Origin: Candidatus Accumulibacter conexus
GTDB taxonomy: Bacteria > Pseudomonadota > Gammaproteobacteria > Burkholderiales > Rhodocyclaceae
Assembly (NCBI GenBank): GCA_017592775.1
Contig: JAGFNJ010000003.1
Coordinates: 1-64,000, forward strand
Direction of reading: 5' to 3'
Length of the DNA: 64,000 nucleotides
Shown here: piece after piece, positions 40,175 through 57,728 of the stretch
Layout: each line of letters opens with the position of its first letter
Position numbering within the stretch: the first letter of the stretch is position 1
The notes under the pieces: generated by a model
Told to the model about the DNA's origin: nothing
The model's database searches: none
The model's input: the letters and a program-made list of their open reading frames with translations, nothing else
Translations under genes and position numbers: made by a program

Positions 40175-42099
40175 CTTTCCAGAGCCTCCCAGCGTTCGAG
40201 CAGGACCAGCAACTCCGCGTCGATCTCCTCCAGCCGCACGGCCAGCCGTTGTGCCTCCTGCGGCGACGATTGGTACAACGCGGGGTCGGCGAGGCGCTCG
40301 CCGATCGCCTGCTGCTCCGCCTCGAGCACCGCAATGCGCTCGGGCAGGGCAGCCAGTTCGCGGCTTTCCTTCCACGACAGCTTGGCGCTCGCCGCGGTCT
40401 TCGCCGCCGCCTTCCCCTTGTCGCCAGCGGCAGCCCCCGTCGCGTTCGCGGCGCGGGATCGCTGCTCGGCGATCGCCGGCGCATCGTCCCGACGCCGCGC
40501 CGCCTGATGGTCGGCCCAGTCCTGGTAGCCGCCGGCGTACTCGCGCCAGACGCCCTCCCCTTCGGCGGCGATCGTCTGCGTCACCACGTTGTCGAGGAAG
40601 GCGCGATCGTGGCTGACGAGAAACAGCGTACCGCTGTAATCCTGCAGCAACTCCTCGAGCAGTTCGAGCGTTTCGATGTCGAGGTCGTTCGTCGGCTCGT
40701 CGAGAACGAGGACGTTCGCCGGGCGGGCGAAGAGGCGCGCCAGCAGCAGTCGGTTGCGCTCGCCACCCGACAATGAGCTGACCAGCGAGCGGGCCCGCTG
40801 CGGGGCAAAGAGAAAATCGCCGAGATAGCTGATCACGTGCTTCCTCTGGTTGCCGATGTCGACGAAGTCCGATCCCGGCGAGATGACTTCGATCAGCGTC
40901 GCCTGCTCGTCAAGCTGACTGCGGAACTGGTCGAAGTACGCCACCTGCACCTTCGTTCCCAGGGTCACCCGGCCGGCATCCGGCGCCAGATCGCCGAGAA
41001 TCAGCCGCAGCAGCGTCGTCTTGCCGGCGCCATTCGGGCCGATGATGCCGATCTTGTCACCACGCTGGACGCGGCACGAGAAGTTGCGCACCACGACCTT
41101 GTCGGCAAAGCTCTTGCTGACCCCTTCGAGCGCTGCCACCAGCTTGCCGCTGCGGTCGCCGGCATCGAGCGCCAGTTCCACCTTCCCCTGTCGTTCGCGG
41201 CGCGCCAGCCGCTCGCGTCGCAGGCGCTCGAGCCGCAACACCCGGCCCTCGTTGCGTGTCCGCCGCGCCTTGATGCCCTGCCTGATCCACACCTCCTCCT
41301 GCGCCAGGAACTTGTCGAAACGGGCATTGGCCAGCGCCTCGTCGTGCAGCATCGCCTCCTTGCGCGCCTGGTATTCGGCGAAGCTGCCGGGACAGGAAAG
41401 CAGGCTGCCGCGGTCGAGCTCGACGATGCGCGTCGCGACCCGCTCGAGGAAGCGACGGTCGTGCGTGATCAACACCAGCGTCATCGTCGAGTGCAGCAGC
41501 ATCTCCTCCAGCCATTCGATGGTCGCGACGTCGAGGTGATTGGTCGGCTCGTCGAGCAACAGCAGGTCGGGCGATACGGCCAGGGCCTGCGCCAGCGCCA
41601 GGCGCTTCTTCTGGCCGCCGGAAAGCGTGCCGACAAGGCGGTCGGCATCGAGCGAGAAGCGCTGGATGACCCGCTCCGCCTGTGCTTCGAAAGACCATGC
41701 CTGGCGCGCCTCGAGTTCCGTCTGCAACGCGTGCATCCGTTCGAGCAAGCCGTCCTGGTCGGCACCTGCCTCGCCGAGGGCGTGTGAAACAGTGTGGTAC
41801 GCGGCAAGCAGCGTCGACACTTCACCCATACCGGCGACGACGGCCTCGAATACGGTCTGCTCGGCGGCAAACGGTGGTTCCTGAGGCACGTAGCCGATGC
41901 GCAGCCCCGGCTGCAGCCAGACCTTCCCGTCGTCAAGCCCGCCACAACCGGCGAGAGCAGCAAGGAGGGACGACTTGCCGGTGCCGTTGCGACCGATCAG
42001 CGCCACCCTTTCGCCGGCATCGAGCTGAAAGGCGGCATGGTCGAGCAACGGTACGTGGCCAAAGGCGAGCGAGGCGTCGGAGAGGATGATGTACGGCAT
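40171..42099 (-). CDS. uup: ABC-F ATPase Uup
   Basis: 642 residues with two ATP-binding cassettes (Walker A GRNGTGKSS and GPNGAGKTT; signatures LSGGQKKRLALAQAL and LSGGERNRLLLARLF) and a C-terminal coiled coil (LPERIAVLEAEQQAIGERLA), as in Uup. These cytosolic proteins act on ribosomes or branched DNA rather than in transport. Full length. Confidence 0.9.
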   Translation of the reverse strand: MPYIILSDASLAFGHVPLLDHAAFQLDAGERVALIGRNGTGKSSLLAALAGCGGLDDGKVWLQPGLRIGYVPQEPPFAAEQTVFEAVVAGMGEVSTLLAAYHTVSHALGEAGADQDGLLERMHALQTELEARQAWSFEAQAERVIQRFSLDADRLVGTLSGGQKKRLALAQALAVSPDLLLLDEPTNHLDVATIEWLEEMLLHSTMTLVLITHDRRFLERVATRIVELDRGSLLSCPGSFAEYQARKEAMLHDEALANARFDKFLAQEEVWIRQGIKARRTRNEGRVLRLERLRRERLARRERQGKVELALDAGDRSGKLVAALEGVSKSFADKVVVRNFSCRVQRGDKIGIIGPNGAGKTTLLRLILGDLAPDAGRVTLGTKVQVAYFDQFRSQLDEQATLIEVISPGSDFVDIGNQRKHVISYLGDFLFAPQRARSLVSSLSGGERNRLLLARLFARPANVLVLDEPTNDLDIETLELLEELLQDYSGTLFLVSHDRAFLDNVVTQTIAAEGEGVWREYAGGYQDWADHQAARRRDDAPAIAEQRSRAANATGAAAGDKGKAAAKTAASAKLSWKESRELAALPERIAVLEAEQQAIGERLADPALYQSSPQEAQRLAVRLEEIDAELLVLLERWEALES

Positions 42100-42324
42100 G
42101 GGCTGGTGTCGTTGCGCCGGAGAAGAAACCGAGGGAAGGCTGCGGGACGGCCATCGGCGCCCCGCAGCTGCGCCGTCAGCCGACGGCAGCCCGTCATTCT
42201 ACCGCGTGCCGGACAGCAGCACGCCGCTTGGCCGTGCAGTGCGGTGTGCGGCCGTCAGGGACATCGGGCCAGCGCCACCGCCCGTGCTGCCACAGTGGCG
42301 ACCAAGCCCGCGACAGGGCGCGGC

Positions 42325-42354
42325 TTGGCGGAAGCCTGAGCCAGCGGCTACAAT
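42325..42354 (+). promoter_or_regulatory. Promoter of tRNA-Arg
   Basis: TTGGCG (42325-42330), 18-base spacer, TACAAT (42349-42354), ten bases before the tRNA. Confidence 0.5.
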
Positions 42355-42364
42355 ACGCGCCCGC

Positions 42365-42436
42365 CTCCTCGTAGCACAATGGACAGTGCACACGCCTCCT
42401 AAGCGTGGGATACAGGTTCGATTCCTGTCGAGGGGA
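42365..42436 (+). tRNA. tRNA-Arg (anticodon CCU)
   Basis: Acceptor CTCCTCG pairs with CGAGGGG (one G-T pair), discriminator A, CCA not encoded. The anticodon arm is CACGC-CTCCTAA-GCGTG with anticodon CCT. D-arm AGCACAATGGACAGTGC and T-arm ACAGG-TTCGATT-CCTGT are normal. It marks the left edge of the accessory island; such tRNA genes are frequent integration sites, but I see no repeated 3' end. Confidence 0.93.
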
Positions 42437-42483
42437 CTTGCCGGGCGTCCGGCGGAGTCCGCCGAAGAAAGCCGGTTTCGCCG

Positions 42484-42808
42484 GCTGAGCACCCACAGCA
42501 AGCAATTGCCCGACACGCTCAAGATCATCGCCTAGCGTGCCGAAACGGCGATGGCCAACGTCCTGGCGCCGCTTCTTGCCCGCCCGGACGAGGCCCGGAG
42601 CTTGCTACGCGCGATCTACACGACCGAAGCCGACTTGCTGCCCGACCCGCAGGCCGGCACCCTGACCGTTCGCCTCCACCATCTGGCCAATGGCGTCTCG
42701 GACCGCGCCGTCCGCACACTCTGTGACGAGTTGAACGCGACCGAGACCGCCTTCCCACGCACCAACCTCCGCTTGATCCTGCAACTCGGTCCTTCGCAAA
42801 ATCCGTGA
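42484..42808 (+). pseudogene. C-terminal remnant of a transposase
   Basis: One frame reads RLSTHSKQLPDTLKIIA, an in-frame stop, then RAETAMANVLAPLLARPDEA and a ~85-codon tail ending LRLILQLGPSQNP. The composition and ending resemble the C-terminus of DDE transposases common in these bacteria. Only the last ~110 residues remain and the stop interrupts them, so the element is dead. Confidence 0.5.
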
Positions 42809-42896
42809 GATCAGGTTGTCTGAACCTGCGGGCTCCTCGATGCCACGCGGTTCGCGACCAGGCATTTTTTTTTGCGCGGGGCGCTGCGCGCCCCGC

Positions 42897-42918
42897 AAAA
42901 CGCCGCGCGGCGGCGTTT
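42897..42918 (-). terminator. Terminator of STAND-FGE gene A
   Basis: On the minus strand AAACGCCGC-CGC-GCGGCGTTT ends in TTTT, 47 bases after the stop of gene A. A second hairpin (42876-42896) lies just beyond. Confidence 0.6.
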
Positions 42919-42944
42919 CAGAGTGCCACTGCGACAGAGTTGAC

Positions 42945-43096
42945 AGAGACCAGAGATCCAGTGGTCAGCGCTTCAGGATGGGGGAGACACACACCAACCG
43001 CAACCCCAGGAGGTCGTAGCGGCCGCCCGGGTCGTCGCCGAGGCGGACGGCGCAGCGCGCGCTGCCGCGGTCGTAGCGCCAGGAGCCGCCGCGCAC
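42945..43096 (-). repeat. DGR-like variable region of gene A with conserved 3' end
   Basis: Conserved upstream edge at 43079-43096 (gtgcgcggcggctcctgg on the minus strand), then 23 variable codons at 43010-43078, then a conserved tail. From 42988 down to 42945 the minus strand is identical over 44 bases to 49151-49194 of gene B, running through and beyond the stop codon. This layout equals a DGR variable repeat with its initiation-of-mutagenic-homology region. Confidence 0.65.
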
Positions 43097-45325
43097 CCCG
43101 CGCCGGGCATCGCCGCTGGTCGTGACCGCTCCCGGCTTTTCGAACTCGTTGAGGCACCACTCCCAGGCGTTCCCGGCGAGGTCCAGCGCCCCCTGCGCCG
43201 AGGCACCGGGCGGGTAGACCCCGACCGCGATCATCCGACCCAGCTCGCTCTCGATCGTGTTCGCCCGACCGTCGCGCCAGTCACCCCATGGGTACTCGCG
43301 CTGCGAATCGCCGCCGGTCGCCGCCTGCTGCCACTCCCACTCGCTCGGCAGCCGGACCTCATGACCCAGCGCGCCGCTGAGCCACTGGCAGTACGCGATC
43401 GCTTCCCACCAGCTCAGGCTCACCGCCGGCTGGTTGGCACGCCCGCGCTGTACTGCCGCCGGAACACCGTAGCGTTTGCCGACGAGCGCTTCATAGCCAT
43501 CAGCCGCCGCGAGAAACACCCGCCACTGCGCCACCGTCACCGGATGGCGCGCGATGTGGAACGGTTCAACGGCAAAACACGGGCGACCGCGCCAGCGACG
43601 CAGCAGGCCGCTCGCCGCGGCGTCGAGTTCGACCTCGCCGCCGGGCACTTCGTGCCAGACGATGTCCGGCAGCCCGTCGGCACGCAGGCCGACGCCCGGT
43701 CGCGGGTCGCCGCCGGGAAGCAGCGCCAGCCGGTCGCCGATCGTCGCCCGCAGCGCGTGCGTCGTCTCCGGATCGGCGAGCAGCGCCAGCATCTCGTCGA
43801 CCGCCAGCGGGCCGAGAAAGCGCTGCTCGCTGTCGCGCAGCGGAAAACGCACGCCGAGCCGCTGCAGCATCGGCGCCGTCTCGAGCATGACGCGCTCGTC
43901 GGGCCAGTGGTGGCTGTCGCCGTGCGCTGCCGAGGCGACGGTCGCGCGCTCGATCTCGCGCCGTTGATGCAGGTCGTCGCGGTCCTGCTGCCGCCAGTCG
44001 CGCAGCCGCGGCCAGTTGCGGATCAGTGCTTCGTGCGCGACCTCGACCGTCTCCTGCCCGCTGCCGGGGTCGCGGCTGGTGACCAGCAGGCGCTCGCTCG
44101 CCAGCTCGCCGATCAGCGCCCGCGCAGCGTCGGCGAAATCGCCGAGCGGCGCGGGCCGGCGGGTGTCTTCACTGCCCTCGCCGAGCTGGACGAGCTGCAG
44201 GAAGACGTCGCGTGCGATCGCTTCGCTGCCGGGGGAGCGCGCCGACAGTTCGTCGATGACGCTGTCGGCGCGCTCGACGATGGCGCCGCGAACGCCGCCG
44301 ATCGCGTCGTAGCCCGCCTGGCAGGGGGCGCCATCCTGGCGCCGCGCGTGGAGCTGCGTCAGGCAGAACTCGAGCAGCGGCAGGTTGCCCGGTTCGTCGC
44401 CGACATCGTCGAGGAGGCGCGCGACGAGACCCGCCTCGAAGCGGAGATCCGCCTTCTCCGCCGGGCCGCAGATCGCCTGCCGGCGCTCGTCGCGGGTCAT
44501 GCCGCCGAGCAGGACCGTCGCCCGCTGCAAGTGGTCGCGCAGCGGCCGGTGGTCGAGCGCACGGCCGAAGAAGGCGGCGCGCAGCGTCAGCACGACCTTC
44601 AGCGGCGCGCTGGCGGCCGCCGCCAGCAGGCAGTCGGCGAAAGCGGCGGCAGTGGTGGCGGTGGCGCCAGTGGTGGCGTCGGTCGAGCGGTAGGTGTACA
44701 GCTCCTCCCATTGATCGACCAGCAGCAACAACTGGCGGCAGCCCGGCTGCACGACCAGCACGTCCGCGACCAGGTGCGGCAGGCCGATGCGGGCGCTGCC
44801 AGCGACGCCGCGCGCCAGTTCGGCGGCGAGTTCGCCAACCGCCAACTGCCGCTGCACGCGCTGGCCGGCGGCCGGATCGCCTTCGATCAGCTCGAGCAGG
44901 CAGCCGGCGAGGCTGCGCCACGGCTCCGGACCCGGTCGCACGATCGCCGCCGACCAGCCGCCGCGCCGGCGCAGCACCGGCAGCAGCCCGGCCTGCACGA
45001 CCGAAGACTTGCCGCTGCCCGAGGCACCGACGACGGCGACCAGCGGCTGCCGGTCGACCGCCGCGACGATTTCGTCGGTGAAGGCATCGCGACCGAAGAA
45101 GAACGGTTCGTCTTCCTCGCGAAAGGCGCGCAGGTCGCGGTACGGGCAATCGGCCGTCGGCGCCCGCGCGCAGCTCGCGTCGAGTTCGCCGATCAGCGCC
45201 GCAAAGTCGCCGGCCTTCTCGTCGCCCGCCGCGCATTGTGAACCCAGGCGTGCGGTCTGCCAACAGGGTGACGGCCGTCTTCCCGGTCGTGCTCTACAAC
45301 GGGCGCCAGAGCTGGACGGCGGCAC
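42965..45325 (-). CDS. STAND NTPase with C-terminal FGE/SUMF1 domain (A), N-terminus probably lost
   Basis: Open for 786 codons, but sequence before about residue 30 looks spurious, so the true start is unknown. CPYRDLRAFREEDEPFFFGR begins an nSTAND1-type ATPase (Walker A VVGASGSGKSS, Walker B LLLLVDQWEELY), followed by winged-helix and helical parts (VEVAHEALIRNWPRLRDW). The C-terminal ~230 residues are an FGE-sulfatase/C-type-lectin-like domain (EPFHIARHPVTVAQWRVFL, RLPSEWEWQQAATGG, GNAWEWCLNEF, RGGSW, LGLRLVCVSPILKR). FGE domains in such proteins are regarded as ligand sensors rather than enzymes. An N-terminal effector domain, present in genes B and C, is missing at the junction near 45240, next to a likewise truncated Rpn gene. 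Confidence 0.8.
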   Translation of the reverse strand: MPPSSSGARCRARPGRRPSPCWQTARLGSQCAAGDEKAGDFAALIGELDASCARAPTADCPYRDLRAFREEDEPFFFGRDAFTDEIVAAVDRQPLVAVVGASGSGKSSVVQAGLLPVLRRRGGWSAAIVRPGPEPWRSLAGCLLELIEGDPAAGQRVQRQLAVGELAAELARGVAGSARIGLPHLVADVLVVQPGCRQLLLLVDQWEELYTYRSTDATTGATATTAAAFADCLLAAAASAPLKVVLTLRAAFFGRALDHRPLRDHLQRATVLLGGMTRDERRQAICGPAEKADLRFEAGLVARLLDDVGDEPGNLPLLEFCLTQLHARRQDGAPCQAGYDAIGGVRGAIVERADSVIDELSARSPGSEAIARDVFLQLVQLGEGSEDTRRPAPLGDFADAARALIGELASERLLVTSRDPGSGQETVEVAHEALIRNWPRLRDWRQQDRDDLHQRREIERATVASAAHGDSHHWPDERVMLETAPMLQRLGVRFPLRDSEQRFLGPLAVDEMLALLADPETTHALRATIGDRLALLPGGDPRPGVGLRADGLPDIVWHEVPGGEVELDAAASGLLRRWRGRPCFAVEPFHIARHPVTVAQWRVFLAAADGYEALVGKRYGVPAAVQRGRANQPAVSLSWWEAIAYCQWLSGALGHEVRLPSEWEWQQAATGGDSQREYPWGDWRDGRANTIESELGRMIAVGVYPPGASAQGALDLAGNAWEWCLNEFEKPGAVTTSGDARRGVRGGSWRYDRGSARCAVRLGDDPGGRYDLLGLRLVCVSPILKR

Positions 45326-45747
45326 GTGACGTCGGCGGACGCATCGCAGCGCTGCCGGCCAGCCGCAGGCGTTATCATCCGGCGCAACGCACCTTCCTGC
45401 TCGAGCAGCGCGCGGTCGATGCAGCCCGCTTGGCCGACACGCAGAACACGGTCGCCGACATCATCCGTCTCGAAACCAGCAGCGTGCCGGCCGACGTGCA
45501 GCGCGCCGTGGCGCGCCTCGCGGCGCACCTGCAGGGCGCAGAATGCGCGAGCCTGCGGCGCGCTTTCGTCGTCTGGATCAACCGGGTGGTCCCGCGGCGC
45601 CTGATGCCCGGACAGGAAATACCCGAAGTCAAGGAACTACAGGAGATCGACACCATGCTTGCCGAAACCGTCGCGGAATGGACCAGACAGTGGAAAGAGC
45701 ATGGCCTCCGCCATCGCCAGCGCGGGTCGGTTGCGTCGCGCGCGTAG
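45255..45747 (+). pseudogene. Rpn-family nuclease/transposase, 5' truncated
   Basis: The readable part starts VFPVVLYNGRQSWTAARDV and ends in EVKELQEIDTMLAETVAEW..., matching the middle and C-terminus of Rpn (YhgA-like) PD-(D/E)XK recombination-promoting proteins. The N-terminal nuclease core is gone. A possible frameshift sits at about 45265, where GDGRLP is in another frame. Head-to-head with gene A, which is also 5' truncated. Confidence 0.6.
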
Positions 45748-45830
45748 GTTGGGCTGAGGAACGAAGCCCAACAGATCCGCGACCGTGCCCTGCCATCCGG
45801 GCGTGTTGGGCTGCGCAGGCTCAGCCCAAC
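45748..45830. repeat. REP-like double hairpin, copy 1 (upstream of gene B)
   Basis: gttgggct-gaggaacga-agcccaac (45748-45772) and gttgggct-gcgcaggctc-agcccaac (45805-45830). The same pair recurs at 49344-49474. Such paired palindromes are typical of dispersed REP/BIME elements. Confidence 0.7.
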
Positions 45831-45910
45831 CGCGGCGCCGCGGATCTTCCGCTGCCCGCACGCTTCGCCGCCAGCCCACCGATCCAGGTGGCTGCTGCTG
45901 CAACCACTGA

Positions 45911-45940
45911 TTGTCGCTGCACCGCCAACAGGGGCATACT
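45911..45940 (+). promoter_or_regulatory. Promoter candidate for gene B
   Basis: TTGTCG, 18-base spacer, CATACT. It lies 46 bases before the ATG at 45986. Confidence 0.3.
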
Positions 45941-45985
45941 GGCACACTTGGCGGCGCTGCACCGCAACCACCGACGGCACCACCG

Positions 45986-48900
45986 ATGAGCATCCTCGAC
46001 GACACCACCCGGCACGAATTCATCACGCTGCTCTCGCCGATCTTCGGGCGCGCGGATCGACGCCGCGATTTGCTCGCGCTGGCGCTCGGCGCCGACGGCC
46101 CGGCGCTGCGGCAGTTCGGCGAGGACGAGTGGCGGGGCCCGCCAGAGGCCTTCGTCCTGCGGCTGGTCGACGCGCTCGCGCGCAGCGACGAGGCCGGTCG
46201 AGCGGCGTTCGCCGGACTGCTCGATTTCGCGCGCGAGCGGGTGACCGACGACCAGCGGCCGCGGGTCGCTGCGCTCACGGCGATGGTCGCCGCGACGGCC
46301 TCGAACGCCGCCATCGCCGCAACGCCGCTGCACCTGCGCGTCTTTCTCGCTTCGCCGGGCGACGTCAGCGAGGAACGTCGACTGGCGCTGCAGGTGCTCG
46401 AACAGATCGCTTACGACCCGCTGCTGCGTGGCCAGGTGACGATCGAGACCGTCGCCTGGGACCAGCCCGGCGGCGGAACGCCGATGCTGGCGACGATGAC
46501 GCCGCAGGCGGCGATCGCCGCCGGACTGCCGCAGCCTGCGCGATGCGACATCGTCGTCGTCATCGTCTGGGCACGGATGGGAACGCCTCTGCCGGTCGAC
46601 GAGTACCGCAAGCCTGACGGCAGCCCGTACCTCTCGGGCACCGAATGGGAGTACCTCGACGCGCTGGCGGCTGCCGAGCGTTGCGGGCGGCCGAGGATTC
46701 TCGTCTATCGCCGCACCGGGAAATGCCTGCTCGACCCAGACGACGACGCCTTCGACGACAGGAAGCGCCAGTACGACCAGGTCAAGGCGTTCTTCGCCAC
46801 GTTCCGCAACCCCGACGGGTCGATCCGCCGCGGCGTGAACGACTATGCCGCTCCTGCCGACTTCGGCCGCGACCTCGCCCTGCACCTGCGATCGCTGATC
46901 CGCGCGCTGCTGCACGAGCGTCCCGCCGCAACGACCCGCTCGTCGCCCATCCCACCGCCCGCAGCGACCCCGGCAGCGCCGCTCTGGCCGGGATCGCCCT
47001 TCCCCGGCCTGCGCGCCTTCACGCCGGCCGACGCGCCGATCTTCTGCGGCCGCGGCCGCGAGACCGACCAGCTCGTCCGCCGGCTCGCCGAAGGCGGCCG
47101 CTTCATCGCCGTCGTCGGCGCTTCGGGATCGGGCAAATCGTCGCTGGCCGCCGCCGGACTGCTGCCGCGGCTGGCCGGCAACGCCATCGAGGGCAGCAAG
47201 GACTGGCTGCTGCCGCAGGTGGTGCCGGCCGGTGCGGCAGACCGCTGGCAGTGGTCGGGGCTGCGCTTCACCCCCGGCGAACTCGGCGACGACCCGTTTC
47301 TCGCGCTCGCCGCCCGGCTGGCGCCGCTGCTGCCGGACGAGATCACGCCCGGCAGGCTGGCCAGGCAGCTCAAGCAGGAACCGGCCAGTTTCGCGGCCGC
47401 GGCCGCGAGCCTCCTCGCGACGCGACCGGAGTGGGCCGAGATCCTGATCTTCATCGACCAGTTCGAGGAACTGCTCACCGTCGTCGCCGAAAGCCGCCGC
47501 GCGCCTTTCGTCGAACTGCTCGCGGCGGCGGCAGCAACACCACGGTTGCGGCTGGTGGTCACCATGCGTGCCGATTTCCAGCCACGCTGGCTCGACTGGC
47601 CGCGGCTGCCGCAAGCGCTCTGCAGCGAGGCGTTCTCGGTTCGCGCCCCGGGCCTCGCTGCGCTGTTCGAGATGATCACTGCGCCGGCGGCGCGCGCCGG
47701 GCTCGAACTCGAAGAGGGGCTGGCGGCGCGCATCCTCGAGGAGACCGGCAGCGATGCCGGCGCACTGGCGCTGCTCGCCTTCGCGCTGCACGAGCTGCAT
47801 GAGGCGAGGGACCCCGCCGGCCGCCTGACGCATGCCGCCTACGACGGCTTCGGCGGCGTCCGCGGCGCGATCAGCCGGCGCGCCGAAAAGACCTGGCAGG
47901 CGCTCCCCGACGCCGCACGGGCACTGCTGCAGCCGGTTTTCGGCGAACTCGTCGAGGTCGACGAACGCGGTGTCGCCACCCGCCGCCGGCTGCCGCGTTC
48001 GCGCCTCGCCGTCTCGCTCGCCGCCAGCGAAGCCGTCGAGATGCTGCTCGCTGCCTTCGTCGATGCGCGGCTGCTGGTCAGCAGCCAGGGTGCGGCCGGA
48101 GCCGTCGTCGAAGTCGCGCACGAGGCGCTGTTCCGCGAATGGCCACGGCTGCGCGACTGGATCGGCGAACGCGCCGACGACCTGCGCACGCTGCGCCAGG
48201 CCGAGACGGCGGCCGCCGAATGGCAGCGCAGCGGTGGCCAGGCCAGCCACCTCTGGCCGCACGAGCGCCTGCAGCCCGTGTTCGAAGCGCTGGCGCGGCT
48301 GGGCAAGGACCGGGCGGACCTCGCCGATCCGGCACGCTCTTTCCTGCGGCCGGAAGCCGAGCGCCTGCTCGCTGAAGTCGCCGACCCGGCGACGACGCAC
48401 GACCGTCGCGCCTGGATCGGCGACCGGCTGGCGAGCATCGGCGATCCCCGACACGGCGTCGGCGTGCTGCCAGACGGCGCGCCCGACATCGACTGGTGCG
48501 AGATCCCGGCCGGAAAGGTCGAACTTGAGGACGGTCACGGCGAGTTCGAAGTCGAGCGCTTCCATATCGCCCGCTACCCGCTGACCTGGTGGCAATACCG
48601 GGCTTTCGTCGCCGACCCGCTGGGCTACGCCGACCGCGGGCGCTGGTGGCAGGGGCTGCAGCGCGAGGACTCACCGGGCGAGCAGTTTCGGCCGATCGGC
48701 AACTGCCCGGCCGAGAACATTTCATGGTACGACGCCGTCGCCTATTGCCGCTGGGCGAGCGCGCGGCTCGGTTACGCAGTGCGGCTGCCAAGCGACGCCG
48801 AGTGGCAGCAGGCGGCTACCGGCGGTCGGCCCGGAAAGGCTTATCCGTGGGGGTCGCGATGGAGGGAAGGATGTGCGAACACTAGGGAAAGCCGGCTCAA

Positions 48901-49174
48901 CCGAACGACGACCGTCGGCATGTATCCGGCGGGTGCTTCGGTCCACGGGGTCTTCGACCTCGCCGGGAACGTCTGGCAGTGGTGCTTTAACGAATACGAT
49001 CATCCCCGCCAAGCCCAACTCAGCAGCAGTACCCGACGCATGGTGCGCGGCGGCTCCTGGATCCACGAACCCGGCAACGCCCGTTGCGGCTTCCGCTTCG
49101 GCAGCGATCCGAGCCTCCGCAACTCCTACTTGGGCTTGCGGTTGGTGTGCGTCTCCCCCATCCTGAAGCGCTGA
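45986..49174 (+). CDS. EAD1-DUF4062-STAND NTPase-FGE protein (B)
   Basis: 1062 residues from the ATG at 45986. Domains: residues about 5-90 look like an EAD1 effector-associated domain (RHEFITLLSPIFG...FVLRLVDAL); about 112-270 a DUF4062 domain (LRVFLASPGDVSEERRLALQ...YLSGTEWEYLDAL); about 335-700 an nSTAND1 ATPase (PFPGLRAFTPADAPIFCGR, Walker A GASGSGKSS near 378-386, IFIDQFEEL); then VVEVAHEALFREWPRLRDW; and a C-terminal FGE domain (HIARYPLTWWQYRAFV, RLPSDAEWQQAATGG, GNVWQWCFNEY, RGGSW). The last residues are identical to gene A's. EADs recruit separate effectors in conflict systems. The 3' end holds a DGR-like variable region and lies 315 bases from the RT gene, convergent to it. A REP-like element lies on each side. 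Confidence 0.85.
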   Translation: MSILDDTTRHEFITLLSPIFGRADRRRDLLALALGADGPALRQFGEDEWRGPPEAFVLRLVDALARSDEAGRAAFAGLLDFARERVTDDQRPRVAALTAMVAATASNAAIAATPLHLRVFLASPGDVSEERRLALQVLEQIAYDPLLRGQVTIETVAWDQPGGGTPMLATMTPQAAIAAGLPQPARCDIVVVIVWARMGTPLPVDEYRKPDGSPYLSGTEWEYLDALAAAERCGRPRILVYRRTGKCLLDPDDDAFDDRKRQYDQVKAFFATFRNPDGSIRRGVNDYAAPADFGRDLALHLRSLIRALLHERPAATTRSSPIPPPAATPAAPLWPGSPFPGLRAFTPADAPIFCGRGRETDQLVRRLAEGGRFIAVVGASGSGKSSLAAAGLLPRLAGNAIEGSKDWLLPQVVPAGAADRWQWSGLRFTPGELGDDPFLALAARLAPLLPDEITPGRLARQLKQEPASFAAAAASLLATRPEWAEILIFIDQFEELLTVVAESRRAPFVELLAAAAATPRLRLVVTMRADFQPRWLDWPRLPQALCSEAFSVRAPGLAALFEMITAPAARAGLELEEGLAARILEETGSDAGALALLAFALHELHEARDPAGRLTHAAYDGFGGVRGAISRRAEKTWQALPDAARALLQPVFGELVEVDERGVATRRRLPRSRLAVSLAASEAVEMLLAAFVDARLLVSSQGAAGAVVEVAHEALFREWPRLRDWIGERADDLRTLRQAETAAAEWQRSGGQASHLWPHERLQPVFEALARLGKDRADLADPARSFLRPEAERLLAEVADPATTHDRRAWIGDRLASIGDPRHGVGVLPDGAPDIDWCEIPAGKVELEDGHGEFEVERFHIARYPLTWWQYRAFVADPLGYADRGRWWQGLQREDSPGEQFRPIGNCPAENISWYDAVAYCRWASARLGYAVRLPSDAEWQQAATGGRPGKAYPWGSRWREGCANTRESRLNRTTTVGMYPAGASVHGVFDLAGNVWQWCFNEYDHPRQAQLSSSTRRMVRGGSWIHEPGNARCGFRFGSDPSLRNSYLGLRLVCVSPILKR

Positions 49175-49194
49175 CCACTGGATCTCTGGTCTCT
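49043..49194 (+). repeat. DGR-like variable region of gene B with conserved 3' end
   Basis: gtgcgcggcggctcctgg at 49043-49060 is identical to gene A. Codons at 49061-49129 differ from gene A mainly at first and second positions (ATC/CGC, CAC/TAC, TTC/GTC, AGC/GAC, CTC/GGC, AAC/TAC), keeping C in third place. From 49151 to 49194 the sequence is again identical to A, beyond the stop codon. Confidence 0.65.
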
Positions 49195-49343
49195 ATCATC
49201 TCTGCTTCACTGGCCCGAAAACGACCGCGGGTGGCTGCCGGGCGGCCGGCCCAATCCGGGTGGCCTGGCCGCCTGACGCCTTTGCATTGCAGCCGACACC
49301 GCTGGCGAGCAGCGAACGGTCGGAACTGTTTGCCGGCACGTCG

Positions 49344-49474
49344 GTTGGGCTGAGGAACGAAGCCCAACATCGGCAAGCCATCACTGACAGCCGGCAGCCG
49401 CTCCACGCGCACGGGCTCCAGCCTCTGGCGGCGCTGCTGGCCTGGGGCGTTGGGCTTCGCAGGCTCAGCCCAAC
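49344..49474. repeat. REP-like double hairpin, copy 2 (downstream of gene B)
   Basis: gttgggct-gaggaacga-agcccaac (49344-49368) is identical to the first hairpin of copy 1; gttgggct-tcgcaggctc-agcccaac (49449-49474) differs by one loop base from its second hairpin. The spacer is longer than in copy 1. The rest of the gap 49175-49489 contains no gene or visible template repeat. Confidence 0.7.
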
Positions 49475-49489
49475 CTACGGGTCTACCGG

Positions 49490-50701
49490 TCAGGCACCGC
49501 GCGCCGGCACCGTCGGCGTGCGCTGGCTGCACTTGCCCGGCCGCCCGCCATCGCCGGTCGCCGCCCACTCGGGCAGCGCCTTTGGCGACGGCGGCCGCAT
49601 CGTGAATCGCAGGCCGCGGAAGACTTGCTTGCGCAATCCCCACGAATCGGCGTAGCGGATGTGGTTCACCCAGCCGCTGACGCTGGCGTCGAACTCGCCG
49701 AAACTGATCCGTCCGCCGAGGTAGTCGTCGAGGCGTTCGCCGAGGTGAGCGACCGTGGCGCGGATCTTGCGCGCCTTGACCAGCCGGTGCGTCGGATGGA
49801 CGACGAAGCCCAGCCAGGGAATGCCGCAGTGCGTCGGCAGCACCTGCGCCTCGCGCGCATGGATGGTCAAACGCAGCTGCGCCAGCCGGTCGACGAGCGC
49901 GCGCTTCCAGTCCCACAGTTCGCGCTTGCTGTCGCTGAACAGCGCACAGTCGTCCACGTAGCGCAGGTACGCCGGGCATGACAGCTCGCGGGTGACGAAC
50001 TGGTCGAACGGGTGCAGATGGCAGTTCGACCAGAACTGCGAAGTCAGATTGCCGATCGGCAAGCCGCGCGGGCGGCAGGCGGCGAGGAGATCGTCGCCCG
50101 CGAAGTAGACCATCGCGTATTCTTCGTCGAGGACGCCGGCGCCGCTCGCCAGAATGCAGTCGACCAGCGCCAGCACGTCGTCCTCGGGGATCGTCCGGGC
50201 CAGCGTCTGGCGCAGGATCGCATGGTCGATCGAAGGAAAGTGCCTGACGATGTCGGCGCGCAGCACGTAGGCGTAGCGCTGCGCGAACTGCTGCAGGCGG
50301 TCCACCGCCCGGTGCGTTCCCTTGCCGGCGCGATTGGCGTAGCTGTCGGCGATGAACAACCGCTCGAAGCGGGGCTCGATGACGCGGCACAGCGCGTGAT
50401 GAACGACCCGGTCGCGGAATGGCGCGGCGCTGATCTTGCGCCGCTTCGGTTCAGCTATATGGAAATGGACGTACGGCCCGGGGCGATAGCTGCCTTCTCC
50501 GAGTTCCCGCCAGAGCGCCAGCAGACGATCGGCGAGTTGGTACTCAGCTGGTACTCGAAGGTCGCCGCCGCGTCCCAGCCGCGCTTGCCCTGCGCCGCGC
50601 GCGCGCCGCCAACCGGTGCTCACGTGCCCACCCCACAGCCCGGCGACATGGCGATCCTGGTTGGAGAAGCCGATCCCCGAAGGCGTATCAGACTGCCTCA
50701 C
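49490..50701 (-). CDS. DGR-type reverse transcriptase
   Basis: 403 codons from a GTG at 50701. RT motifs are in order: [50 protein letters not shown] (first catalytic Asp), [20 protein letters not shown] (SQ in place of the QG usual in retrovirus-like enzymes, a DGR mark) and [11 protein letters not shown] (catalytic Asp pair), then [14 protein letters not shown]. Residues before EYQLADRL do not resemble the family. A (GC)n deletion and an 11-bp duplication appear to shift the frame out and back, replacing about 20 residues; whether the enzyme is active is therefore open. The gene sits between the 3' ends of STAND-FGE genes B and C. No accessory avd gene or template repeat was recognised. Confidence 0.88.
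50535..50556. repeat. 11-bp tandem duplication inside the RT gene
   Basis: agttggtactc followed directly by agctggtactc, one base different. Removing one copy restores FEYQLADRL in the minus-strand frame used upstream by [10 protein letters not shown]. Confidence 0.75.
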
Positions 50702-50833
50702 CGGCTTGCACCGGCCAGCCGAGTATCGCGCTTGGCGCCTTCTCTGCCTAGGGCGAGCGGGGCCGAGTGAGAGCGGCTGGGGCTGCGCGCGGGGTGCAAC
50801 GCAGCGCTTGAGCCTGCCAGCGAGGCATGGACG

Positions 50834-50987
50834 GCAAACCTCAGCGATGCAGTGATCAGTGCCTCAGGATCCTGGAGGCGCACACCAGCCGCAACCCGAG
50901 GGCGTAGTCGCGGTGACCCGGATCGAGACCGTTGCGAAAGGCGCAGCGTGCGAGGGCACTATGGGTCGAACAAGATCCACCTCTGAT
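50834..50987 (-). repeat. DGR-like variable region of gene C
   Basis: 23 variable codons at 50901-50969 align without gaps with those of A and B; constant positions (RC, R, DP, R) are shared. Downstream, ctgaggcactgatcactgca on the minus strand matches the A/B tail (ctgaagcgctgaccactgga) past the stop, though diverged. Gene C may belong to a different template or have been inactive longer. Confidence 0.5.
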
Positions 50988-53900
50988 CACGCGCCTTACG
51001 TCCGCATTGGCACCCTCGCGCCGATCGTCTGGAGCGTAGGGGTAAGGATGAAAGGCGCTGCTCGTCCATTCAAAGACGTTTCCGCTGACGTCGGCTAGCC
51101 CTTCGGGTGTATCGCCAGCCGGAAACACACCGATTGGCGTCGTGGCGCGAACATGAGTCTCGAAGCTGTTGCAACGACCGACCTCGAACTCGTCGCCCCA
51201 GGCATAGCGCCGACGTTCGCGGCCACGCGCCGCCGCCTCCCATTCAGCTTCGCTGGGTAACCGCCAGATCTGCCGGCTCTGCGCCGACAACCAAGTGCAG
51301 TATGCTCGGGCCTCGTGCCAGCAGATGCCGACCACCGGCTGCAAAGCACTGTTGTACTGTGGATCGTTCCAGATGTCTGGCTGTGTTTTCTTTCCCGCGG
51401 GGTACCGCTGGTTCAACGTGCTCTCCAACTCGCGATCAGTCATCCGCCTCATCACCTCAAAACCTTCGGCCTGCTGCCAAGTCATGTGCCCGTTCCGGAG
51501 CAGCTCGTCGATTCGCTCCGAATTGTCGCACGCCCACTGCCGTCCTGCCCGCCATGCGTGTTTCGGGCCTTCGGCAGTCCTCTCGCCGCGCCGCCAGCGC
51601 TGCGCCGCGTCGTCCTGCCACCATCGCTCGTCCTCATAGCCGCCCGCGGCGATGAACAGCCGCCACTCGGCATTGGTCACCGGGAAGCGAGCGATGGCGA
51701 AGCTCGCGAGCCTAACCCTGTGCGCCGGTGATTCGCCCGCGTACAGCCGGTCGTCACTCCCTACGCGGTAGCGGCCCGCGTCGACCACCAGCAGCGGCGG
51801 CAGCAGGAAGTCGTCACCATCGGGGCCGCGGCCTTGCGCGAAGCGCGGATCGCCGAGTTCGCCGAGCGCGCGCGCGGCGGCGATGCGCGCGCGCAGGTCG
51901 GCCTGCGGATCGCGGCTGCGCTCGACCAGCGCCAGTTGCAGACGACGGCGCAACGCGGCGGAAACCGGCACGTCGGGCGGCGCGGCGCAGCGGCCGGCGA
52001 GCGGCAGGTTGCGGTCGATAAGCGCGCCGACGAATGCGTCCGCATCGCGCGCGATCGCCGCGGCCAGGACGAAAGACTCCTCCCAACCGGTCGCCGGCGC
52101 TTCGGGCAGCGGATCGGCGTCGGCCAGGCCGGCGAGCACCTCCGGCAGGCGCGGCAGCATCGCGTCGGCGCGCCAGGCGGTGGCGGCGAGTTCGGGCTGT
52201 GGCTGGCCGGCGAGCGCACGCGCGGCGAAATACTCCTGCAGCAACTGATGTACGTAGAAGACGTCGTCCCACTGTTCGTCGAGCACCTGCATCGCGACGC
52301 CGGCGTGCAGCAGATCGTCGCCGTGCTGCGTCCCGCATTCACCGCCGAGCAGTTCGCGCGCGTCGTCCCACGGTACGCGCAGGCGCGACGCTTCGCCGGG
52401 CGCGCGGCGCGACTGCAGGTCGTGGGCGAAGCGGCCGAGCGCCGGCAGCAGCAGGCCGCCCTGCGGCAGGTCGGTAGCGTTGCGCCAGGCGCGGGCGCTC
52501 TGCGCCAGCCGTTCGTGGTCGCGCCGGTCGAGCAGCGCGCCGGGGCGGAACAACGGATTGTCGGCCGTGATCTCGCGCTGCAGCGCCTGGCGGACGAAGG
52601 CGGTGAACAGCGCCGCCCGGCCGTTGAGCAACGGACCGCCGGCGCCGGCCTGGGCGAGCAGCAGCCGGAGGTAGAACGGCGAGCGGAAGAGGTCGAGCTG
52701 CGGCGTTCCGCGCAGTTGCTGCCACAGCGCCGGGCCGTGCTCGGCGTCGTAGGCGCCGAGGAACTCTGCGACCTGCGAATCGCTGAGCTGCTCGATGCGC
52801 ACGTGCGGCACCGGCCCTTCGGGCGTCGACAGGCTGGCGCTGTAGTCGAGGCTGCGGCACGAGAACAGGACCCGCGTGCCCGCCGGCAGTTCGCCGACGA
52901 AATCGCGCCAGAGCGCGATGCGCTCGCGGTAGTCGGCCTCGCCGCTGTGCGGCAGCTCGTTGACCGCGTCGAGCAGCAGGACGAGCGGCCCGCTCGCGAG
53001 CAGTTCGCCGAATGCCGGCAGTTGCGGGTAGCGCCGGCTCCATTCCTGCGCCAGCCAGTCGCCCGGCAACGGCGGCGCTTCGCCGGGGCGGGCCGGTCGG
53101 TAGCGGTTGAGCGGAACGAGGAAGCTCAGCGGCGACGCCTCGCCAGCCGCTGCCCGCAGAGCGTCCGCGGCGAGGTCGAGTTCGAGCCGGCGCAGCAGCG
53201 TGCTCTTGCCGCAGCCCGGCGGACCGAGCAGCACCAGCGCCCGCTCGCCGGCCTGCACCAGCACTTCCCGCAGGTCGTCGAAAGTCTGCTGCAGCGGCTG
53301 CCAGCGCGTTCCCTGCGCGTCCGGGCCCTGGTCGAGCAGCAGCGTCAGCCGCGTGAAGCGCTTGTCGAGCGCATGGCGCGGCTGCGCCCATTCGGCGATT
53401 CGCGCCAGGCGGTATTCGTCGAGCGTTCGCGGCGAGTGGCCGACGATCTCCTGCAATGCGCCAGCCGGCAGTTCCGGCAGCGGCTGGCCGGCGAGCAGCG
53501 CCTGCCGCACCGCCTGCAGTCCGGTCGGCAGTCCGCCCTCCTGGCTCTGCTGCGGAAACGCCGGTGCCGCAGCCCGACCCGGAAAGCCCGGCGAACGCGA
53601 CGGCTTGCGCCGACCGCCGCCGATGCCGGCGAGCAGCGTCTCTCGTGCCGCCGGCTCGTCGAGTCCGAGCAGATCGACGTAGACGATGGCGCGCAGCATC
53701 CCGGCGGGATCGCAGTTGCGAACCCGCACCGGCAGCAGGACGCCGCCGCTGCCGGTCGGATCGCGGGCGAAGGCCTCGGCCCACTCGGCGGCGGTGAAGT
53801 GCGCCGCCAGATAGTCGGGCGAGAGGACGGCGATCGTCCGCCGGCTGGTGCGCGCCGCACGGTCCATCTCGAGGACGAAGTTGCCGCCGGCGTGGAAGTC

Positions 53901-54443
53901 CCAGGCCTGAATGATCGTGCTGTAACCGGCGTCTTCGAGCTGCCAGGCGATCCATTCGGCCCAGTCACGGTCGTTGCCGTTGTAGCTGACGAAGAAGTCG
54001 CGCGGCGCCGTTGCGGCGTCGGCCGGCGGCGCTGGCGCGGGCTTCGCGCGCCGGGCAGCGCCGCCCGCTGCAGCCGCCGCCGCACCGGCCGACGGCGGCG
54101 ACGGGCTGCCGATGGCGTTGGCCGCGCCGGCTGTCGGGATCGCGATGCAGCGGCGGTCGAGTTCGTCGATCAGCGTCTGGAAACTCTCCTGCAGCTCGTC
54201 ACCGGCCTCGCCGCGAACGGCTTCGAGCAGCAGCGACAGCGCGTGCCGCGAGCCGACGCAGCCGCGGTCAAGCAGCTGACTGACGCAACAGACGCTGAAG
54301 TCACTGGCGCTGCCGCTCTGCGATATGCCGTCCAGGATCGCCCGGTTGCTGCCGTGGAAGGCGAGCGCGAGCCTAGCGCCGCGGCGCTCCTCGCTCAGAT
54401 GGGGTTGCAGCAGTCGCGCTGCACGCGGCAGGAAGTCGTCCAT
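50856..54443 (-). CDS. TIR-NACHT/STAND-FGE protein (C)
   Basis: 1195 residues. Residues 1-100 are an all-helical effector-associated-like domain. Then comes an Ala-rich linker, a TIR domain at about 148-280 ([40 protein letters not shown]), a NACHT-type ATPase (Walker [12 protein letters not shown] at about 406-415, Walker [12 protein letters not shown]), helical repeats, and a C-terminal FGE domain ([65 protein letters not shown]). TIR domains in bacterial conflict proteins cleave NAD+ or make signal nucleotides. The organisation equals an animal or plant NLR: effector, switch, sensor. Its 3' end is 155 bases from the RT start, same strand, so RT and C may be cotranscribed. Confidence 0.87.
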
Positions 54444-54632
54444 GGCTCGGGTGCCGGCAGGTGCGGGGTGGGCAGTTTGGGGGGTTGGGGCGGTCGATGC
54501 AGTGCAGCGGCGATGCTAACCGAAAACGCCGGCCAGCGGGGCAGCCCGGCCAGGCCTCGCCGGCCGAGGAGTATGCGGAGACGGCAAAGGCCACGGCCTG
54601 ACAACCTCAGTAAACCCGCAATCCCTTTTTCA

Positions 54633-54672
54633 GAAGATCGAAGACCCGCCCCGGCTGGTCTTCTCGCTTTCT
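54633..54672 (-). terminator. Hairpin after the esterase-STAND-TPR gene
   Basis: gaagacc (54640-54646) pairs with ggtcttc (54657-54663); flanks extend pairing weakly. It lies about 30 bases past the stop of the minus-strand gene. The minus-strand side continues gatcttctgaaaaa, so it is not a strong terminator. Confidence 0.35.
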
Positions 54673-54695
54673 GAGCCTTCAACCCTCCAACACAA

Positions 54696-57575
54696 CTACG
54701 TTGCACCCGGCGCCAGGCGCGCCATCCAGGCGCACGCTTGAGCAGGCCCACCGGTCACTTCGACCAGCGCGCCAAAAACGTAGTCGCTCACGCTGCCCAC
54801 ATGCGCACGTTCTGCAGCATCCAGTGCCGACCGCAGCGCTTCGTCCCGCAAGCCTTCTTTGCGCAGCGCATGCAGGCAGCGCGCCAACTCCGCAAAGGTG
54901 TACGCAGTTCCTATGGGCTCTTGCTCCTTTGCGTACAAAGCCAAAGCGCGCTGATAGGTCTTGACAGCCTGGGCATGGTTAGCGCCAGCACGCTGCAAAT
55001 CGCCCAGCGCCTGAAGCGTGTTCGCCTGCCCCAGGCCGGCTTGCTCCTTCTCATAAAGCACCAGCGCCCTGTCGTACAGCCCCCGCGCCTCGTCCGGCCG
55101 CCCCAGCCGGCTTTCCAGATCGCCCAGCGCCTGAAGCGTGTTCGCCTGCCCCAGGCCGGCTTGCTCCTTCTCATAAAGCACCAGCGCCCTGTCGTACAGC
55201 CCCCGCGCCTCGTCCGGCCGCCCCAGCCGGCTTTCCAGATCGCCCAGCGCCTTCAGCGTGTTCGCCTGCCCCAGGCCGGCTTGCTCCTTCTCATAAAGCA
55301 CCAGCGCCCTGTCGTACAGCCCCCGCGCCTCGTCCGGCCGCCCCAGCCGGCTTTCCAGATCGCCCAGCGCCTGAAGCGCGCTTGCAGGCCTGGCCAAGTG
55401 CGTGTGCAGACGCGCCAGCACGTCGCGCGATAGCGCTGCGCGAAACTGGTACTGGTTGATCAAGGCGTCGTGGGTCTTCTGCAACCAGTCCAGGCGGGGT
55501 GAAGCATGGTCCAAGTCGTGCTGAAACAGCCGCGCCAAGGTCGCAAACTCGTCCATCAGCCATGCACGCGCGCCAAGGGCCTGAGAGGTCGATGCGATGC
55601 TGGAAGCCGCGTTCGCAACTTCACCGAACAGGGTTTGGGGCGCCTCCCGGCATGTGGCCCAATCAAAGCAAGCGGTGCCGGCCAGTGAGGCGTCCAAAGC
55701 GTAGCGGGCCAAGGGCGGCAGCATGTGCCAGCGCTCACCCCGCCGGGTCAACACATGGTGCCGAACCAACCAGGGCCGGGCCCGGGCCCAGCCGCCCAAT
55801 GCTTCCAGTTGCTGCAACACCGAGTCAGAAACACCGGTGGCAAACAGCGCCGCTACGGTCCATAGGGCCAAGCTGCCTTCGTGCCGCGCCAAAGCATCCG
55901 TTGTCAGCCGAAGGCTGACGGGCAGGCTGCCCAACCGGCTTTGGGCATCTTGCGGGTCTTGCGCTATTTCAGCGCCTGCGGCTTGCCAGCGCCGCTGCAA
56001 TTCGGCAAAGGTGTAGCAGTCACCCAGGCGCGCGGCCAGGGTCACGGTCAACGCGTGGGCACCGAGTTGCTGCACCACGAAGGGCCGCAGCATGGGGTCG
56101 GCGGGCAAAGCGTCGTTGCCCGCCCAGAGGTCACGAAACAATTGCAGCGCCTCGTCGGCAGGCAATACATCCACCACGATGGGCTTGCCCAGCACCCCAG
56201 GTAGGCTGACACGCGACGAAGCCAGCAGGCGCACCCCCGGCTGGTCCTTCAATGCACGCAGCACCTGTTGACCTTCGGGGGACTCAGCCACGCTTTCCAG
56301 GTTGTCCAGGTAGTAAAGCGCCGGCGGCAACGCTGGCAGCAACTGCTGAAGGGTGTCCGCGCTTTGCAAACCCACCGCGCGGGCCATGCGGTCCACCAGT
56401 TCAACGGCGTTGGCGCTATCGGGCAGGTCAACGTAGTAGGCCACTGCATCAGGGTGGCTTTCCAACCAGCGTTTCAGCGCGGCCTTGCAAACTTCGGTCT
56501 TGCCGATACCGCCCACGCCAGCCACCAGCGCAGTGACCAGTGCAGCATCGCGGCCACCGCGCAAAAACTCAAGCACCTGCGACACCTCGGCATGGCGGCC
56601 GTACAGGCGCGCTTCGCGGGGCTGCAGGCGCTTGTCGTCCGCGCCGGACAGGCGGCCGGGTTCTGCGGACGGTGCGAGCCGTGGCATGACCACTTCAAGC
56701 TGCGGCGTTGCCGGCACCGACACCGCTGCAACGGCCATGGGCACGTTGCCAAGGGCAGGCGACTGCGACTCGGCGACAATCACGGGCAAGTTGGCAATGA
56801 AGTCGCACAGCGACTTGTGGATTTGCTGGTTTCGATCGACGGGTTTGCAGATACTGAAGTGGTCGCCGGCCAGGGGCACCGTGGTCATCTGGGGCAAGCC
56901 GGGGTCGGCGCTGCTGGCGTCCACGACTTGCCTGCGCATCCCAGTGGGAATGCGCAACCCTGCCCACGTGACGCCCACGGGAACCCCCTGCCTCTCTGCG
57001 TAAGCCCGCACTGCAATACCCTGCTTCTGCACTGCGCTGCGAAACTGCTGGTTCAACCCCCGCAAATGGGCGTCGTGCGCGCGCATGTTGCCTACCTGTT
57101 CGTTGGTGCGAAGCACCCACCGCACGGCGCTGGCCAAGCTGGCCAGGTTCGAACCGTTATGCGGTGTGGCGACAAAGACAATGGCGACGATGCGCCTGAC
57201 AACTTCCTCGACACGCGGATCGCCCTTGGTGCGCCCATTGATAAGCAATGTCTTGATCACCAGGCCGCCCATGCTATGGCCAATCAGCGCCAGGGGTTTG
57301 GCCCTCAACCCTGGCTCAGTGGCCAACAAATCGGCCACCTGGTCGCCTTGATCGGGCAAGGGCATGGCCTGGCCCTGCCAGGCGGACAGTGCGGAGTCAT
57401 AGCCCAGTGCCCATACATCGCAATTGCAGTCCCGCCCCACCCAGTGCGGCCAACAGTCATCCGGCTTGCAGCGTTCATGCCGCCAAGTGTCAACAGCGTC
57501 GCCCCCCAAGCCGTGAACGAATATGAGGGCGGGACGCCCAGTAGGCGCCGTGTGCAGTCTCCTCAGTTCCGCCAT
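54696..57575 (-). CDS. Esterase-STAND (NB-ARC)-TPR protein
   Basis: 959 residues from the ATG at 57575 (AGGA SD). The N-terminal ~265 residues are an alpha/beta hydrolase of PGAP1/DUF676 type: FVHGLGGDAVDTWRHE, nucleophile Ser101 in LIGHSMGG, FVATPHNGSNLASLA, and a late His in AGDHFSICKP. A STAND ATPase follows (YGRHAEVSQVLEFLRGGRDA, Walker A VAGVGGIGKTE near 352-360, LYYLDNLESV), then a winged-helix region and TPRs. The last TPRs include three 40-residue units almost identical at DNA level. The layout of effector, switch and repeat sensor matches antiviral STAND proteins with a lipase or esterase effector. Base composition is slightly lower in GC and codon use differs from neighbours, suggesting separate acquisition. 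Confidence 0.85.
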   Translation of the reverse strand: MAELRRLHTAPTGRPALIFVHGLGGDAVDTWRHERCKPDDCWPHWVGRDCNCDVWALGYDSALSAWQGQAMPLPDQGDQVADLLATEPGLRAKPLALIGHSMGGLVIKTLLINGRTKGDPRVEEVVRRIVAIVFVATPHNGSNLASLASAVRWVLRTNEQVGNMRAHDAHLRGLNQQFRSAVQKQGIAVRAYAERQGVPVGVTWAGLRIPTGMRRQVVDASSADPGLPQMTTVPLAGDHFSICKPVDRNQQIHKSLCDFIANLPVIVAESQSPALGNVPMAVAAVSVPATPQLEVVMPRLAPSAEPGRLSGADDKRLQPREARLYGRHAEVSQVLEFLRGGRDAALVTALVAGVGGIGKTEVCKAALKRWLESHPDAVAYYVDLPDSANAVELVDRMARAVGLQSADTLQQLLPALPPALYYLDNLESVAESPEGQQVLRALKDQPGVRLLASSRVSLPGVLGKPIVVDVLPADEALQLFRDLWAGNDALPADPMLRPFVVQQLGAHALTVTLAARLGDCYTFAELQRRWQAAGAEIAQDPQDAQSRLGSLPVSLRLTTDALARHEGSLALWTVAALFATGVSDSVLQQLEALGGWARARPWLVRHHVLTRRGERWHMLPPLARYALDASLAGTACFDWATCREAPQTLFGEVANAASSIASTSQALGARAWLMDEFATLARLFQHDLDHASPRLDWLQKTHDALINQYQFRAALSRDVLARLHTHLARPASALQALGDLESRLGRPDEARGLYDRALVLYEKEQAGLGQANTLKALGDLESRLGRPDEARGLYDRALVLYEKEQAGLGQANTLQALGDLESRLGRPDEARGLYDRALVLYEKEQAGLGQANTLQALGDLQRAGANHAQAVKTYQRALALYAKEQEPIGTAYTFAELARCLHALRKEGLRDEALRSALDAAERAHVGSVSDYVFGALVEVTGGPAQACAWMARLAPGAT
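55021..55380 (-). repeat. Three 120-bp tandem repeats encoding TPR units
   Basis: Three consecutive 120-base units identical except for a few bases at the unit joint (ctgaag versus cttcag and the final base pair). Each encodes the same 40-residue unit around LGRPDEARGLYDRALVLYEK. A diverged partial fourth unit adjoins at 54979-55020. Recent expansion or gene conversion is likely, and copy number may vary between strains. Confidence 0.95.
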
Positions 57576-57728
57576 CTTTCCTGCCCTTTGATTTTCCGCG
57601 TGCTGTCGGTGACGAAGGATAGGAAATCCAACCGCACCACGGTGAGTATATGAGCGCCCGCGAAGCGGCGTCAATCTTCAAGCTCCTTCCAGGAACCCCT
57701 GAAAAGTCCTCTGGCTTCGGCTCGCTCA

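Follow-up and report, generated by a model that had tools for sequence, protein, structure and literature searches.

The DNA analysed here (the window, a 64-kb stretch that runs from position 1 to 64000 of contig C26, in a genome of 4.87 Mb assembled in 102 contigs) very probably contains a degenerate diversity-generating retroelement (DGR) with STAND-FGE targets in Ca. Accumulibacter, in which the template and the avd gene have been lost and the N-terminus of the reverse transcriptase (RT) has been rearranged. Since the template and the helper gene avd are gone, the remaining RT would most likely be a relic beside receptors that were diversified earlier, and the locus itself is most likely silent now. 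Its features are given below, where the counts refer to the template of L044, that is, the template of Ca. A. iunctus, used as a sister-species reference.

49490-50701, minus strand: RT open reading frame of the DGR clade, 403 aa; catalytic core open, first ~40 residues without homology to the relatives
50684-50746, minus strand: remnant of the template leader, ending at most 3 nt from the template start as placed in Ca. A. iunctus; weaker match up to 50797
50599-50683, minus strand: scar region, where the relatives' template repeat and avd are absent; DNA-level RT homology returns at 50598
50856-54443, minus strand: gene C, EAD8-TIR-NACHT-FGE, in the upstream target position (ORF and Pfam domains)
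50858-50995, minus strand: putative variable region of C, old, its coordinates placed by eye; 18/27 template adenines and 28/111 other bases differ
45911-49174, plus strand: gene B, EAD8-(weak DUF4062)-nSTAND1-FGE, in the convergent target position (ORF and domains)
49031-49168, plus strand: variable region of B; 15/28 template adenines and 16/114 other bases differ
42965-45325, minus strand: gene A, nSTAND1-FGE, third target (ORF and domains)
42971-43107, minus strand: variable region of A, the freshest; 18/27 template adenines and 7/114 other bases differ
42925-42964, minus strand: post-stop flank of A, common to B and to a remnant on contig C59
49175-49214, plus strand: post-stop flank of B, common to A

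This arrangement confirms the layout given in the original prediction, according to which an RT with the motifs LPIGNLTSQ and YVDD lies between the 3′ ends of two STAND genes, B and C, with a third, A, some 6.5 kb away: the ORF list places the RT gene between the 3′ ends of B and C, the 3′ end of A is found ~6.5 kb from it, and the RT ORF contains both motifs and matches RVT_1 at 3.1e-14. The description of the three genes as STAND proteins ending in FGE is likewise borne out, with FGE-sulfatase at the C-terminus of A (5.5e-38), B (7.6e-40) and C (5.5e-51), and a STAND NTPase core that is nSTAND1 in A and B and NACHT in C. In their N-terminal parts, C carries TIR_2 and EAD8, B carries EAD8 (27.2 bits vs a cut-off of 27) and a DUF4062 match under its cut-off (20.0 vs 24.7 bits), and for A no effector or adaptor domain was found with Pfam; the PADLOC matches of all three are weak. 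The FGE ends would probably sense ligands for NLR-like defence proteins and would now be fixed.

The surroundings of the locus include a tRNA-Arg (CCT) at 42365-42437 of the window, ~500 nt past the 3′ end of A, and an ORF at 45238-45747 (plus strand) that overlaps the start of A and has no Pfam match at E ≤ 0.01. B is flanked on either side by interspersed repeats (45740-45831 and 49336-49475) that hold GTTGGGCT and AGCCCAAC and are also present at 8937-9076 of L044. The next NLR-like neighbour (54696-57674, minus strand) combines TPR repeats with weak PGAP1-like hydrolase and AAA matches, contains near-identical 120-nt tandem units at 54996-55390, and matches PADLOC DUF626_VIII at 1.1e-46.

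That the RT is of the DGR type, as originally predicted, follows from the closest structure, the template census and the tree taken together. The solved structure nearest to it by sequence is 8ub7 (E 1.2e-35), which appears in the structure table only as "Reverse transcriptase" and which we take to be a phage DGR RT; the best group II intron RT follows at 6.9e-16 and chains labelled retron-type at 4.8e-11. The tree comprised 85 rows, namely the window RT, the loci of the named-genome census with one exception (79 of 80, a piece of <230 residues being omitted), and five RTs from the same genome, three of them other DGR-like RTs and two distant ones, on contigs C1 and C92, that of C1 being presumably a group II RT. 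In this tree the window RT joins that of Ca. A. iunctus (L073, 99% SH-aLRT) and then that of Ca. A. appositus (L072, 98%), nested among Accumulibacter DGR RTs, many with adjacent templates, and the C1 RT is placed apart; the tree is the product of one short search, and the program warned that long outer branches may join falsely, these being the five own-genome RTs and not the neighbours of the window RT. An enzyme unrelated to DGRs, be it of a group II intron, a retron or a DRT system, could be suspected from the top NCBIfam model, group_II_RT_mat (1.3e-33), but this match reaches 116.6 bits against a cut-off of 300; the NCBIfam Drt models lie far under their cut-off, the top PADLOC match is a generic RT model (4.9e-43, with UG17 at 6.8e-23), and with tree, template census and closest solved structure all pointing to a DGR, such an origin was discarded and retains practically no likelihood.

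The relatives of this RT indicate what a complete locus contains. The first set started from 22 RT matches found outside the own genome, in related genomes (15 of 61 genomes, the own genome included, matched at E ≤ 1e-60), from which 19 stretches were examined and three fragments left out; the 19 loci are not all independent, because L052 and L053 gave identical matches. An avd match (bAvd in Pfam, Avd in PHROGs) is present in all 19, although partial in L044, L045 and L054, and an adenine-biased pair of template and variable region in 18, the sole locus without a pair being L048, whose RT lies 755 nt from the contig start. Over the best 60-nt stretch, all mismatches fall on template adenines in 17 of the 18 pairs, and 8 of 9 do so in L054. 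Among the nearer loci, the 12 that have a template (L043-L055 minus L048) share the order target, template, antiparallel avd and RT, with a second target that is convergent in six of the 12 and in the same orientation in three; in the six farther ones (L056-L061) avd is encoded on the same strand as the RT. The named-genome census, whose counts are raw scan hits, covers 80 loci among the matches listed, at least six of them repeating loci of the first set, and gives a pair in 60 and avd in 75; among the 46 well-flanked loci (more than 1,200 nt ahead of the RT match and more than 1,500 nt behind it) the pair is found in 42 and avd in 45, L147 being the one relative with neither. Eight target ORFs from the relatives were scanned for domains, and all contain FGE: NACHT accompanies it in seven, together with caspase in two of them and with a TIR below the cut-off in two of the other five, and the eighth is clipped to the FGE by the contig end.

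Near the window RT, neither an adenine-biased template repeat nor the accessory protein Avd was found. At the settings used for the relatives no template/variable-region pair appeared in 42001-52000 or 44490-55701, a second set of settings likewise returned 0 template pairs in the window, and 0 in a shuffled window stretch as control, and lax settings retrieved only the A/B pair; the best avd match in the window has an E of 0.90. The original prediction had staked itself on an adenine-biased template for A, B or C somewhere in the genome, and none was found in the 102-contig assembly with the B variable region and the iunctus template as queries (best 40 of 42 and best 40 of 74 candidates scored), the sequence matches being A, B, the C59 remnant, contig C35, the C63 loci, and short weak ones. 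An active local DGR was thus rejected, neither template nor avd having been found, and the present-day targeted hypermutation that had been proposed for the sensor domains is not supported, in view of the same losses and of the rearrangement of the RT N-terminus.

What persists of the lost segment is the leader, ~80% identical to L044 and 82% identical to L043 over 50 nt, which, among the 28 Accumulibacter genomes searched, was found in the own genome and in two others only (G024, Ca. A. iunctus, and G009, Ca. A. appositus); the ≤3 nt between its end and the L044 template start was judged by eye on alignments. Of the deletion, the left edge alone is firm; the proposal that its right edge coincides with the beginning of avd was abandoned as weak, since 8 of 500 shuffles matched equally well. 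The N-terminal segment of the RT, as aligned, displays a further loss together with a short tandem duplication, and the window RT aligns to 8ub7 only from chain residue 39, the L043 RT from residue 11.

Template and variable repeats tend to break assemblies, and the junction between C and the RT is known from a single assembly, without reads. The missing parts could accordingly be an assembly effect or a strain-level deletion, with other cells in the population keeping an intact locus that still diversifies A, B and C; the fresh variable region of A speaks for this, as does the coexistence of strains whose DGR loci are intact with strains whose loci are degraded, reported in the part of Dore et al. 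(PMC10907252) drawn on here. However, the lesion is no simple repeat collapse, in that the leader was kept, the template and avd went, and the RT N-terminus was further rearranged, and we regard a mere assembly or strain effect as unlikely.

The past activity of the DGR is most legible in A, whose FGE end bears the signature of adenine-directed writing when compared with the iunctus template (p = 5.5e-11 for the counts given above). Four of the seven non-adenine differences of A, counted on the alignment, fall in the last 18 nt, a stretch in which L044 and L043, too, show differences between template and variable region, and only 1/10 of A's own adenines is mismatched, which sets the direction as from template to A. 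The corresponding values are p = 3e-5 for B, where the adenine-directed signature is weaker, and p = 8e-5 for C. Enrichment at adenines is nevertheless obtained even with templates that cannot be the source, as with the unrelated template of contig C35 (1.8e-4 for A, 0.024 for B, 0.0082 for C), so that agreement at the other bases is the telling part, and with the iunctus template A agrees well, B fairly and C poorly. For B and C, adenine enrichment by itself cannot tell the two templates apart; the C35 template, with other-base mismatches of 28/104 in A, 34/106 in B and 31/85 in C, against 7/114, 16/114 and 28/111 with the iunctus template, was discarded as the source of any of the three.

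As the C35 template also yields the enrichment, the case for C having been written from an L044-type template is weak; identity to the L044 homologue is 74.6% in its FGE region and 92.6% in the part upstream of it, and this drop suggests that the C end may have been replaced or may have drifted. The three intervals singled out beforehand in these genes (43010-43078, 49061-49129 and 50901-50969) do lie inside regions that align to the sister-species template repeats. The proposal that the FGE ends are diversified by a DGR stands, for the past and with respect to the sister-species template, clearly for the C-terminus of A, more weakly for that of B, and weakly for that of C. The codon-position test of A vs B gives p = 0.0097, modest alone. 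The non-adenine substitutions point to an order of writing in which A would be the most recent, followed by B, with C the oldest. On contig C59 (107102-107291, L003), a ~190-nt remnant of the 3′ end of an FGE gene, with a broken frame and an A/B-type post-stop flank, differs from the iunctus template at 18/26 adenines and 16/114 other bases (p = 5.4e-8).

The same genome contains other DGR parts. An orphan template of a second type, close to the L049 template, is found near the end of contig C35 (52299-52437, L065), a contig on which no RT was found and on which a scan for a local variable region of this template gave none; the avd there is a remnant, and the only other avd match of the genome, on contig C73, is 36% identical. 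On contig C30 (233-366, L156), an FGE gene near the contig end is a very fresh product of the C35 template, with 20/25 adenines and 2/111 other bases changed in the gene end (p = 2.5e-17). Contig C24 (6320-7360, L010 and L017) carries an RT with LPIGNLTSQ, 42% identical to that of the window, for which no template (2-13 kb of the contig scanned) and no avd were detected, and contig C73 (L018) a further DGR-like locus with template and RT. Contig C63 bears two more DGR-like loci (L015, 5278-9010, and L016, 564-6014). The right one combines template and RT with a pair of FGE variable regions; in the left one a template-like repeat accompanies two FGE genes, and no RT match was obtained.

These parts raise the question of a system that is split and not dead, in which the window RT would act in trans on the orphan C35 template or on another. 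The C35 template without an RT on its contig and its very fresh C30 product agree with such a split, as does the fact that the window RT is the sole close relative found, in this assembly, of the RT clade concerned (the next best is 42% identical), and diversification in trans has been proposed for DGRs (PMC10907252, in the part considered). However, the C35 template resembles the templates of another RT subclade and fails to explain A, B and C at non-adenine sites, the avd matches amount to the C35 remnant and that of C73, and the window RT is damaged at its N-terminus; a split system is very unlikely. That two defective DGRs make up for each other's losses, with the window RT, which has neither template nor avd of its own, writing the C35 template into the C30 gene, is a highly improbable case, which if true would mean complementation by an RT that can do without an Avd of its own and use a foreign type of template.

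Within a decayed DGR, the reading that we prefer, the state of the RT core still calls for comment. Against L044 it shows a dN of 0.048 and a dS of 0.264 (dN/dS ~0.18), and against L043 a dN of 0.120 and a dS of 0.545 (dN/dS ~0.22), over 237 codons in both cases; as the core is open and under purifying selection, the RT may still be used. Branch values derived from the three pairwise values would be ~0.27 for the window RT and ~0.08 for L044, and the core would have been constrained until recently and is perhaps relaxing now. Retention for some other role, for example as a solo antiviral RT, would accord with this purifying selection and with the C24 RT, which also has no detected template or avd, but the best PADLOC match is the generic RT model, with the DRT/UG models far weaker, and the sister locus retains its template, so that a role of this kind is exceedingly improbable.

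The order found in the nearer relatives comprises a first target with its variable region, a template repeat, an antiparallel avd, the RT and, in half of them, a convergent second target; of this the window retains the first target (C), the template leader, the RT core and the second target (B), together with the third target (A). In the complete machine, judging from known DGRs, the RT would have copied the template RNA with errors at adenines, and the mutated cDNA would have taken the place of the 3′ ends of the FGE domains, ends that after the loss of the machine would stay fixed, no longer diversifying. The locus would offer a clear instance of a DGR decaying next to NLR-like receptors, where the variable regions outlast the machine as fixed and possibly useful sensors, and where comparing the three genes with sister loci whose template is intact would make the order of diversification and loss readable.

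Among the known loci closest to the window is that of Ca. Accumulibacter iunctus (G024:C136, L044/L073), with a syntenic C-homologue, RT and B-homologue, an RT 86% identical to that of the window, and 82.8% identity over the 4.6 kb of RT and B; unlike the window, it has kept its template and has no A homologue in the stretch compared (L044), its avd match is partial, and homology between the two RTs does not start before about window residue 94-106. The locus of Ca. Accumulibacter appositus (G009:C104, L043/L072) shares with the window the leader, the target family and the RT (79% identical), and differs from it in that template, avd and RT N-terminus are all present. Compared with the L044 template, the variable region of its upstream target (L043, 973-1130) shows a gap of one base, and its end is out of frame.

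The combination of genes, which had been thought possibly new, is of a published kind. PMC10907252, in the part drawn on here, deals with clade 5 DGRs in multicellular bacteria, names Accumulibacter among the hosts of the RT lineage, and describes STAND NTPase targets with CLec/FGE ends, some with EAD8 or TIR, as well as degenerate loci, so that DGR-diversified STAND-FGE proteins, this host and such decay are already on record; PMC7159879, likewise in part, ties hypervariable FGS domains and DGRs to conflict systems. This particular locus was not found described in the literature searched for Accumulibacter and diversity-generating retroelement. It is ordinary in kind and leaves the knowledge of DGRs and of bacterial STAND proteins unchanged, its state of decay being what is informative. 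The likeness of the window locus to clade 5D is one of the features described in PMC10907252. As here, degenerate loci are present in the genome of Thiohalocapsa PB-PSB1, according to the same part of PMC10907252; there one complete locus per class remains, and in the genome of the window no complete locus of its class was found. In common with the window, DGR 3 and DGR 6 of Thiohalocapsa PB-PSB1 and other members of clade 5D have the RT near at least two STAND NTPase targets (nSTAND1/NACHT) with CLec/FGE C-termini, EAD8 occurring in the targets of DGR 6, and TIR or peptidase N-termini in some clade 5D targets (PMC10907252).
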